A stretch of DNA of 43,550 nt from Chlorobiaceae bacterium (lineage in GTDB: Bacteria; Bacteroidota; Chlorobiia; Chlorobiales; Chlorobiaceae): the NCBI GenBank assembly GCA_013335405.1, contig JAAXVR010000024.1, positions 1-43,550 of the forward strand. The letters run 5' to 3'. Positions within the stretch are counted from its first letter, which is position 1, and every line of letters begins with the position of its first letter. The notes beneath the pieces were generated by a model. The model saw nothing but the letters and a program-made list of their open reading frames with translations, did not search any database and was not told the DNA's origin. A program made the translations under genes and the position numbers. Below are positions 2,800 to 6,643 of the stretch, one piece after another.

Positions 2800-3378
2800 T
2801 CAGTTTTCAGCCGGATTTTCAGGTGCCGACGGTGGTGCAGGGGGAGCTGCGGACGCCTGGGGCTTGGGTTCAGGTGCATGACCGCAGAACGGTATCTGCT
2901 TGACTTCCTTTTTTTGATGCTCGTCGTGCCCTGAGCCGATGACCGGAGAAAACACCGTGTTGACAAGTTGCCCGAGACCGAAGCTCACATTGCTGAAGAG
3001 GTTCTGCACCTGACCGGAACTTACCGTCGTGTTCAGGTTGTCAAGAAGGTTCTTGAGCATTTTCCCGAATTCCTGGACCTGCTGGGAATTGATCGTGGCG
3101 TTGACGCCTTCGAACAGCTGGCCTGAAACGGAATTGACGCCTTCGATAAGCTGGCCTGAAACGGAGTTGACGTTCTGGATGATTTCCTGGAGCGGTTCCG
3201 ATTTAATCGTACTGTTGACGCCCTCGATCAGTTGCCCGGTAACTGAGCTTACCGAGTTTATCATTCCCTGTACCGACTCGATGGTCGAGTCGAGAAGGAT
3301 CCCGACATTGCCGATGAGGTTGGCGAACTCTCCCTCGCCGGCTTTCGTATCCGGTTTGTTTATCTCTTCTGCAGCCAT
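2800..3378 (-). CDS. Repeat-containing amphipathic protein, possible chlorosome-envelope protein
   Basis: A 192-residue protein with no recognised enzymatic motif. It has no signal peptide and no strong membrane span. The core (residues ~20-150) is a series of amphipathic helices rich in V, N, S, G, Q and L. It includes the unit VNSVSGQLIEGVN at 43-55, 70-82 and 81-93, the last two in tandem with an 11-residue period. A final amphipathic helix (about 130-148) precedes a charged stretch and a Pro/Ala-rich tail (170-192). Composition and size recall green-sulfur-bacterial chlorosome-envelope proteins (Csm families) or phasin-like coat proteins, but I cannot assign a specific Csm symbol. The start ATG at 3378 lies about 43 bases from a TATATT element. 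Confidence 0.6.
   Translation of the reverse strand: MAAEEINKPDTKAGEGEFANLIGNVGILLDSTIESVQGMINSVSSVTGQLIEGVNSTIKSEPLQEIIQNVNSVSGQLIEGVNSVSGQLFEGVNATINSQQVQEFGKMLKNLLDNLNTTVSSGQVQNLFSNVSFGLGQLVNTVFSPVIGSGHDEHQKKEVKQIPFCGHAPEPKPQASAAPPAPPSAPENPAEN
3101..3166. repeat. Two tandem 33-bp repeats inside the amphipathic-protein gene
   Basis: The 33-base units 3101-3133 and 3134-3166 differ at only a few positions. A diverged third copy lies at 3215-3247. They encode the 11-residue amphipathic repeat, so the protein probably grew by in-frame duplication. Confidence 0.85.
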
Positions 3379-3530: not shown

Positions 3531-5150
3531 TCAGTCCACTTCCCTTGACGGCCTGACGAACAGCACTTTTTCCCTCTCGACGATGACTTGACCCTTCGCA
3601 CTTTTTTTCATGCGGCGGACGTATTTTCTGAAGGTGTAGATGACCGGAACGAGTTCCGAATGTTTTGCTGAGGAATGCCATGCCGCGATGGATGCGGCTT
3701 TTTTTATGTCGTCGAGATGGTCCATTCCCGATCCTTTCAGCACGCAGTGCGAACCGGAAGATCCCCGTGCATGGAGCCAGATGTCGTCGGGTTTTGCGTG
3801 ACCGAACGTAAGTTGATCGTTGTTTTCGGCATTTTTCCCGATAAAAAGCGTCGCCTTCGGGGAAATCTGTACCGAACGGAAGGGTGACGCCGGTTTATTG
3901 TTCCCGGCGACAGGTTTTTTTACTTCGTGCTCTTCAAGAAACCTGCGGGCATTTTTCGGGTTTTCTATGCTTTCCAGAGTGCCGATAGTCTTTTCGAGAA
4001 CGGCTTTTTCACGTTCAAGCAGCGCATGCCGTTCTTTCATCACAGCAACCCTCGCTCTTGTTTTTGCTGCTTTCGAGAAGTATGCTTCCGCGTTTTCGCG
4101 AAGGGTGAGCGCTTCTTTGAGTTCTATGGTTTTGTCTGCGGTATCCGTTTCGAAAAAATTGCTGACCGTGATGCTTTTTCTTCCTTTTCCTTCGTTACCG
4201 AGGGATGCCATGAGCAGGTGTCCGCAGGCCTCATAATCGCGGGATAATTTTTCGAGCATTTCCGGATCGTAGGCGGCGAGCTCTTTTTTCTTTTTTCCGA
4301 GTTGCCTGATAACCCGGTCGCGGAAAATTTTCAGTTCATCCCTGGTCTCGATGAATTTGAGGGTCGAAATACTGTAGAATGCGAGCCCTTCGAGCACTGA
4401 CGGGAAGGTGACGGTGTTTTCGGGTTGTCCGGGGAGTATCGAAAACACAGGTTCTCCTGTTTCCATTTCCTTTACGCTCGCCGTCGGATCGAGCAGTTCA
4501 TAAAATACCGTACGGAACATCTCATACATGGTTTCGGGGCAGTTGCCGCCACCAGTGCTTTCAAGCAGTTTCCGGGCAAGGGAGCGGTCGAAACCAGGCA
4601 GGACGGCCGAAACAGTTTCAGCGGGATCCGTCTTTTTTTTCGATTCGAACCGTTCAATAAAGAGGTTCCTGTCGAGAGCGAGCTTTTCAAGTGAGCGAAT
4701 AATCCCTTCTCCGGCGGGCGTTTCCGGGTAGCGGGTGCCTTCGGGATTTTTTTTCTGGTGCAGGGCATCGCGGACAATATTTTCCTTTACAAGCAGAATG
4801 TTCGATTCCTGCCCGAAAAACCGGAGGATGAGATGTTCGCTCTGTTCGAGGTTAATCGATATCTCCCGGTCGAAAGGCGAGATCGAAACCCCCGACACGG
4901 ATTTTCCCGCGCACTCTTTCAGGATGCTTGCGGAGTTTTTTCCTTTTACCCGGGAGCCTTCCCTTGCAAACATGCACAGACGGCGGGATCCCGGAAAAAT
5001 GAAAAGCTGGAAGCACGTTCCGCATGCCAGGGTGAAGGCGAGCACCACCTGCTCTTTTTTCCCCGTGCAAACTTCGTCGATGCGGCTTCCTGCGAGCTTT
5101 TCGTGCAGTTCACGGGCGGCATGGTAAAGGGTGAAATAATTCCTGTGCAT
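3531..5150 (-). CDS. rqcH: NFACT-family protein, RqcH/Rqc2 homologue (ribosome quality control)
   Basis: A 539-residue protein with the full NFACT layout. It has an N-terminal NFACT-N domain (MHRNYFTLYHAARELHEKL onward), a central helical and coiled-coil region rich in K, E and L, and a C-terminal NFACT-R domain (formerly DUF814) with DDIWLHARGSSGSH-VLKG. Bacterial RqcH binds stalled 50S subunits with peptidyl-tRNA and adds alanine tails that mark nascent chains for proteolysis; older annotations call it fibronectin-binding protein A. The start at 5150 matches the family N-terminus; the 41 in-frame residues upstream lack conservation features. It lies 173 bases downstream of the J-domain gene on the same strand, possibly co-transcribed. 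Confidence 0.88.
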   Translation of the reverse strand: MHRNYFTLYHAARELHEKLAGSRIDEVCTGKKEQVVLAFTLACGTCFQLFIFPGSRRLCMFAREGSRVKGKNSASILKECAGKSVSGVSISPFDREISINLEQSEHLILRFFGQESNILLVKENIVRDALHQKKNPEGTRYPETPAGEGIIRSLEKLALDRNLFIERFESKKKTDPAETVSAVLPGFDRSLARKLLESTGGGNCPETMYEMFRTVFYELLDPTASVKEMETGEPVFSILPGQPENTVTFPSVLEGLAFYSISTLKFIETRDELKIFRDRVIRQLGKKKKELAAYDPEMLEKLSRDYEACGHLLMASLGNEGKGRKSITVSNFFETDTADKTIELKEALTLRENAEAYFSKAAKTRARVAVMKERHALLEREKAVLEKTIGTLESIENPKNARRFLEEHEVKKPVAGNNKPASPFRSVQISPKATLFIGKNAENNDQLTFGHAKPDDIWLHARGSSGSHCVLKGSGMDHLDDIKKAASIAAWHSSAKHSELVPVIYTFRKYVRRMKKSAKGQVIVEREKVLFVRPSREVD

Positions 5151-5323
5151 GGCGGTCCGGCCTTTTGTTTTCTGTGCATATGTTTCCTCTGCAGCGAGCG
5201 AACGCTCTCCATGCAGACGTTTCAAGGGGAGAGGTCCTGCCGTCAACGTATTCAGGCAGGCGGGTTTCGGCAAAAAGTGGTCAGACTGAACTGCGAACCC
5301 CTCCTGTCTGCTTTTTTTCCTGT

Positions 5324-6643
5324 TCAGGGAAACCCGGATGCAACTTTTTTCGCCGGATTTTCCGGATCCGGACCGGCGGCCCGGAGCACCGCGTTGTCAA
5401 AAACTTCTGCGGGCCACTCTGCCATTTCATTCCCTGACTCCTTTCGGTCCGGGTCTGCGGGTTTGTTTTTTTCAGATGCCGGATTGTTTTTCAGCCAGTT
5501 CATATAGGCTTTTCCGACTGGCTCGGGAAAGCTTTTCTTGAAATGAACGGTTCCGGTTTCGGTATTGTACACCCATACGGCGTTTATGAGGGAATGGATA
5601 TACCTGTTGGTCACCTTCCTGTTGAGCTGATAGAATATTTCATATTCGTTGGCATGGTTTTCCGATACGGCCTCACCTTTGCCGTTCACTTCGGGAGTGG
5701 CGATAATCAGGATGCCAAGATATTTTTTCAGCTCCCTCCCTTCCGACGGGCTGATCCGGAAAGTCAGTGCAGACGTGATGTAACGCGCAATTCCGGGTTC
5801 TTCCCTTATGTCTTTCAGGTAGTAGTTCGTGATTTCAGGTATCGTCTGGCTGCCGCTGTCCGCCGGGTGCGATGATTTTCTCGATTCGACAATCAGGGGC
5901 GCCGTATCGCCGGACTTGCTGTTGTCGGTAAACGAGATGGATATGAGCTGGCGATCTATGTCATACGACGATACCCGACCAAAGGCGGATGTGAAAAAAT
6001 ATTGCCGGTGAAAAACGGATGACCTGAACCTGGCGATGTAATCACCCAGTTTCTCGAATTCATCCTTCGGTGGAAACGACTCGAGTTCGCGGGCAAAAAG
6101 GCCCGTAATATCGTCGCTGATGAAAACCCGGGGAATGACGAGCGTTTCCGTATTCATTTCCGCCGGTGAAGAAACGGTCGAGGGGCTGTTCACGGTCTGC
6201 GGAACGGTTTTCATGCCCGGAATGCCGTATTCGCTTATCAATTGCAGCAGCGGATCGTAGACGGCTATGGCGAAGATCAGGGTGAAAAAAAGAGTGCCTG
6301 TCGTCAGAATGAATACGCTCCGGAATGAGATCGCTCTTTTTTTGTGCGCAAACGGCTGATTTTTCTGCCAGGCAGGCTTTTCGGAAGGTGCTTCGGTATT
6401 TTTCGAACCGCAGAGATCCTGCTGCCGGAGCCATTCGTCATAAAGCTTCCTTTTCAGTGGATTGCAGAGGATGTCGTATGACTCGTTGATGCTTTTCATC
6501 CGTTTGGCCGCATCGGGACTTTCCTGATGCAGATCGGGATGATGAATTTTCGACAGGGTCCTGTACGCGGCTTTTATGACCTCGTCAGGGGCACTTCTCG
6601 ATACTCCGAGGTTATCGTAATGCGTCAGGATACTCTTCATCAT
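5324..6643 (-). CDS. Membrane-anchored J-domain (DnaJ-like) protein
   Basis: A 439-residue protein. Residues ~7-72 form a J-domain with the catalytic HPD tripeptide at 35-37, which stimulates ATP hydrolysis by DnaK. No Gly/Phe region, zinc-finger repeats or DnaJ C-terminal domain follow, so this is a class III J-protein. A basic stretch (KKRAISFR) precedes one hydrophobic segment (about 108-128). The remaining ~300 residues would then lie on the other side of the membrane and match no family I recognise. Orientation is inferred. It would recruit DnaK to the membrane. The gene precedes the RqcH-type gene. No strong ribosome binding site is visible; the second ATG at 6640 is an equal candidate start. 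Confidence 0.8.
   Translation of the reverse strand: MMKSILTHYDNLGVSRSAPDEVIKAAYRTLSKIHHPDLHQESPDAAKRMKSINESYDILCNPLKRKLYDEWLRQQDLCGSKNTEAPSEKPAWQKNQPFAHKKRAISFRSVFILTTGTLFFTLIFAIAVYDPLLQLISEYGIPGMKTVPQTVNSPSTVSSPAEMNTETLVIPRVFISDDITGLFARELESFPPKDEFEKLGDYIARFRSSVFHRQYFFTSAFGRVSSYDIDRQLISISFTDNSKSGDTAPLIVESRKSSHPADSGSQTIPEITNYYLKDIREEPGIARYITSALTFRISPSEGRELKKYLGILIIATPEVNGKGEAVSENHANEYEIFYQLNRKVTNRYIHSLINAVWVYNTETGTVHFKKSFPEPVGKAYMNWLKNNPASEKNKPADPDRKESGNEMAEWPAEVFDNAVLRAAGPDPENPAKKVASGFP

Follow-up and report, generated by a model that had tools for sequence, protein, structure and literature searches.

A csmH gene with an additional 11-residue repeat in a Chlorobiaceae green sulfur bacterium, and a possible role of its product at the chlorosome lipid monolayer

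The window, that is, the whole analysed stretch of 43,550 nucleotides from a Chlorobiaceae bacterium, contains exactly one open reading frame (ORF) in the interval 2800-3378. It encodes 192 amino acids on the minus strand, with the ATG start codon at 3378-3376 and the stop codon at 2802-2800, while a plus-strand reading across the same interval meets four stops. The first-pass annotation had proposed a gene here and given no strand; the gene is real, and its strand is minus. The features of the gene and its product are listed in Table 1.

Table 1. Features of the csmH gene and the encoded protein, in positions of the window.
Feature	Position	Strand	Remarks
csmH ORF	2800..3378	-	192 aa; TIGR03058 rpt_csmH 85 bits vs cut-off 60; orthologues throughout Chlorobiaceae
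N-terminal leader, residues 1-18 (MAAEEINKP...GEGEF)	3325..3378	-	Conserved start MA[AT]EE; leader ends in the conserved motif G-[ED]-[MF]-A
Amphipathic helix 1 (residues 15-57)	3208..3336	-	AlphaFold2 helix, pLDDT <50 throughout; hendecad hydrophobic face
Best-scoring 27-residue CsmH unit (residues 34-60)	3199..3279	-	
Amphipathic helix 2 (residues 61-94), comprising the second unit with its extra hendecad	3097..3198	-	
11-residue tandem NSVSGQLIEGV/NSVSGQLFEGV (residues 71-92)	3103..3168	-	TRF array 3101-3172
Amphipathic helix 3 (residues 99-118), with the highest moment	3025..3084	-	
Amphipathic helix 4 (residues 122-143)	2950..3015	-	
C-terminal part, residues 144-192	2803..2949	-	KKEVKQIPF-containing stretch, then Pro/Ala-rich tail; tail length varies across family

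The ORF is almost certainly csmH, coding for chlorosome envelope protein H, and its product in this member of the Chlorobiaceae almost certainly sits in the envelope of the chlorosome, the sac with which green sulfur bacteria harvest light. The NCBIfam model TIGR03058 (rpt_csmH, chlorosome envelope protein H), which has 27 positions and a curated cut-off of 60 bits for the whole-protein score, matched the protein in three stretches, with 85 bits and an E-value of 2.1e-24. The primary source on CsmH of Chlorobium tepidum is reportedly the work of Vassilieva et al. from 2002. In C. tepidum, ten proteins have been assigned to the envelope of the chlorosome, CsmH being one of them; the chlorosome is enclosed by a protein-lipid monolayer, and the reported CsmH size of 21.6 kDa is about the same as that of the 192-residue protein described here (PMC3175400). 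The initial suggestion of a chlorosome envelope protein, to be checked against models of Csm proteins, was thus right, the protein in question being CsmH. Both this identity and the organelle are established knowledge, and the protein, having been described already, is not new; the envelope location is likewise established for C. tepidum and would be transferred to the present protein by orthology.

CsmH matches were found in 84 of the 86 Chlorobiaceae genomes that were sampled, in none of 12 genomes from other families of the class, and in none of 14 control genomes. CsmA was present in 96 of 98 genomes of the class, 11 of the 12 genomes from outside Chlorobiaceae included. The closest csmH relatives in public genomes all come from Chlorobiaceae, and a profile of ten orthologues, applied to the other families of the class in search of distant CsmH, yielded only weak matches in long frames (E 0.004 or worse). 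Of the two Chlorobiaceae genomes lacking a CsmH match, G040 is 77% complete and consists of about 460 contigs, and G075 is 99% complete. The protein shares with the family described by TIGR03058 both the 27-residue repeat, scoring above the curated cut-off, and the occurrence in Chlorobiaceae alongside CsmA; the window's genome encodes CsmC and, directly behind csmC, CsmA.

The gene order beside csmH is largely kept: of 56 loci, 54 have dut there and 49 a gene for a PIG-L deacetylase. This conserved order supports the orthology of the present csmH with the other members of the family. On the upstream side of csmH, the window carries NFACT-like and DnaJ-like genes (3531-6643), which occur beside csmH in only three of the 56 loci, many of these loci being cut to a few kilobases. 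As these genes are rare beside csmH and the dut/PIG-L side is conserved, the gene order directly upstream of csmH seems to have changed.

The first-pass annotation described the gene as built of tandem 33-bp units encoding an 11-residue repeat. Such a tandem is present: Tandem Repeats Finder (TRF) reported one array, at 3101-3172, with a period of 33, 2.2 copies, 92% matches, and a score of 123. It is not the main repeat of the protein, however. Self-identity of the CsmH sequence peaks at offsets of 38 (that is, 27+11), 27, and 11 residues (24, 20, and 19%, respectively); in shuffled sequences, the maximum over all offsets averaged 16% and was at the highest 26%, which makes the bare scan only modestly significant on its own. 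The three offsets point to a 27-residue repeat with 11 extra residues in one copy, and the spacing of motifs in the orthologues settles the matter. Among 63 distinct orthologues, successive motifs of the GQLIEGV type are 27 residues apart in 99 cases and 11 residues apart in 16, and 15 of the 63 have at least one 11-residue step. Judged from these spacings, the unit of the CsmH family is 27 residues long, and the 11-residue tandem arises from a hendecad that has been duplicated within a single unit. A periodicity of 11 residues does exist in the helical register of a hydrophobic face, but what had been taken for the repeat was a lineage-specific duplication rather than the family unit. The CsmH of this lineage thus consists of 27-residue units plus one extra hendecad; in other species, the number of GQLIEGV-type motifs ranges from two to four, and the tails vary.

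Duplicated hendecads are seen in other genomes as well. The locus L016, from the sister genus, has NTVSGQLIENV followed by NTVSGQLIEGV where its near relative L021, from that genus too, has a single copy, a difference that suggests a separate gain of the duplication. Three hendecad copies in a row occur in L060. On a dUTPase tree, the 11-residue duplication needs four changes, only one of which is forced by strongly supported branches, so that it may have arisen once or several times.

The middle of the protein had been described as amphipathic helix without a membrane span, and this was confirmed. The hydrophobic moments of residues 18-58, 63-96, and 101-119 were reached by none of 2000 shuffles and that of residues 124-143 by 14 of 2000, with the helix periodicity peaking at 97-99.5 degrees per residue. 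No membrane span was predicted, the best 19-residue Kyte-Doolittle window scoring 1.14, below the requirement for a span. The AlphaFold2 model divides the region into four helical stretches with short polar breaks between them. This model has a mean pLDDT of 38 and lies below 50 everywhere, and from it we used only the agreement of the helix limits with the sequence pattern; a comparison with solved structures gave nothing better than E 0.39.

The hydrophobic face proposed for these helices is conserved and free of charge across the whole family. At 39 of the 126 positions in the region 18-143, at least 95% of the 63 aligned sequences have Val, Ile, Leu, Met, Phe, or Trp, and none of the 39 ever carries a charge. 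In the first long helix, the conserved hydrophobic positions fall at 0, 3, 4, 7, and 10 of the 11-residue register. The remaining positions, forming the polar face, are rich in Ser, Gly, and Asn, and on average 15% of them are charged. Since one hendecad corresponds to three helical turns, an inserted hendecad keeps the face aligned, which, we infer, would account for the tolerance of insertions of precisely this length.

CsmH probably binds flat to the lipid monolayer with these helices. The protein would most likely lie in the chlorosome monolayer as a chain of amphipathic helices, with the hydrophobic face turned to the pigment and lipid interior, the face rich in Ser, Thr, Asn, Gln, and Gly turned to the cytoplasm, and the Pro/Ala-rich tail outside. 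Together with other Csm proteins, it would help to coat and shape the envelope. Strong amphipathicity is also reported for CsmA, the best-studied envelope protein, which is found in the baseplate (PMC4992139). Against simple lipid binding, the CsmH helices are net neutral or negative, and a standard lipid-binding discriminant favours only the third helix, around residues 104-123. Mutants in a single csm gene are reportedly viable, csmA excepted.

A less likely, though possible, arrangement is that CsmH resides in the envelope with its helices packed not on lipid but against further Csm proteins, or against one another in a hendecad coiled coil. Hendecad registers are found in coiled coils too, and the register 0, 3, 4, 7, 10 is compatible with either packing or lipid binding; moreover, envelope proteins were reportedly examined by cross-linking by Li, Frigaard and Bryant in 2006. 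The composition of the polar face, poor in charge and rich in Ser, Gly, and Asn, would nevertheless be unusual for a coiled coil, and no confident helix packing was predicted by AlphaFold2. Monolayer binding is the reading that we prefer.

The first-pass annotation compared the protein to lipid-binding families outside the Csm proteins, but the Pfam search revealed no kinship with phasins, perilipins, apolipoproteins, or synucleins. Among these families, the only match was to synuclein, at E 0.055, and its 14.1 bits stayed below the threshold of 23.3; perilipin and apolipoprotein gave no match. That the protein is a phasin, or coats some other granule such as one of polyhydroxyalkanoate, with no link to the chlorosome, is very improbable. 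A broad resemblance exists, as phasins too would be amphipathic helices without a membrane span, but no phasin family appeared among the Pfam matches up to E 5, while the CsmH model scored above its own cut-off and the distribution is confined to chlorosome-bearing Chlorobiaceae. Finally, the notion that the ORF is a chance frame across repetitive DNA, which the partly open remaining frames might favour, is refuted by the conservation of the protein with its fixed hydrophobic positions in 63 distinct orthologues and by the kept dut neighbourhood, and has a negligible probability.

Strong homology to an unrelated soluble family had been named in advance as a sign against an envelope protein, and no unrelated Pfam family passed its cut-off. 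Matches to LPD38 (E 0.00017) and Focal_AT (E 0.0025), both of an unrelated kind, were below the gathering cut-offs and were treated as composition effects of a repetitive amphipathic helix. CsmC (PF11098) is likewise a protein of the chlorosome envelope, and this genome encodes it too, but homology between the two was not supported, either by the Pfam match (E 0.41, 11.1 bits against 26.3) or by hhalign against the genome's own CsmC (probability 3.6%).

As a gene, csmH is ordinary, since both the envelope protein that it encodes and the organelle are known already. Perilipins, apolipoproteins, and synucleins have an 11-residue amphipathic register, keep the hydrophobic face free of charge, and lack a membrane span; CsmH is like them in all three respects and differs in having no sequence kinship with them. 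Tentatively, CsmH might be regarded as a bacterial counterpart of perilipins and apolipoproteins, similar in mechanism and not by descent: a helical monolayer coat of adjustable length, whose reach could have been tuned in evolution by gain and loss of 27-residue units and of single 11-residue hendecads that keep the face in register. If the hendecad reading is true, CsmH would be a simple system for studying how monolayer-bounded organelles are coated, because the length varies within the family in steps of entire 27-residue units and of single insertions of 11 residues.

The window's genome also encodes a 66-residue protein (G000:C21:130537-130734, equivalent to L002:1459-1656, plus strand) that is named by no Pfam or NCBIfam model. 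By hhalign, it matches the N-terminal helix of CsmH (probability 88.6%, E 2.6e-6, 49 columns); this match covers most of its length, and it differs from CsmH in being a single unit without the repeat array or the tail. Orthologues are present in all 18 other sampled genomes of the same genus. In G075, a 99%-complete Chlorobiaceae genome with no detectable full CsmH, we found only a short relative of 66-70 residues (L072:1498-1707, minus strand). CsmB and CsmF are proteins that resemble part of CsmH. Judged by size, the 66-residue protein is probably CsmB or CsmF, which in C. tepidum are of 7.5 and 7.6 kDa, respectively (PMC3175400). In two genomes, its gene comes after a mannose-1-phosphate guanylyltransferase-like gene.
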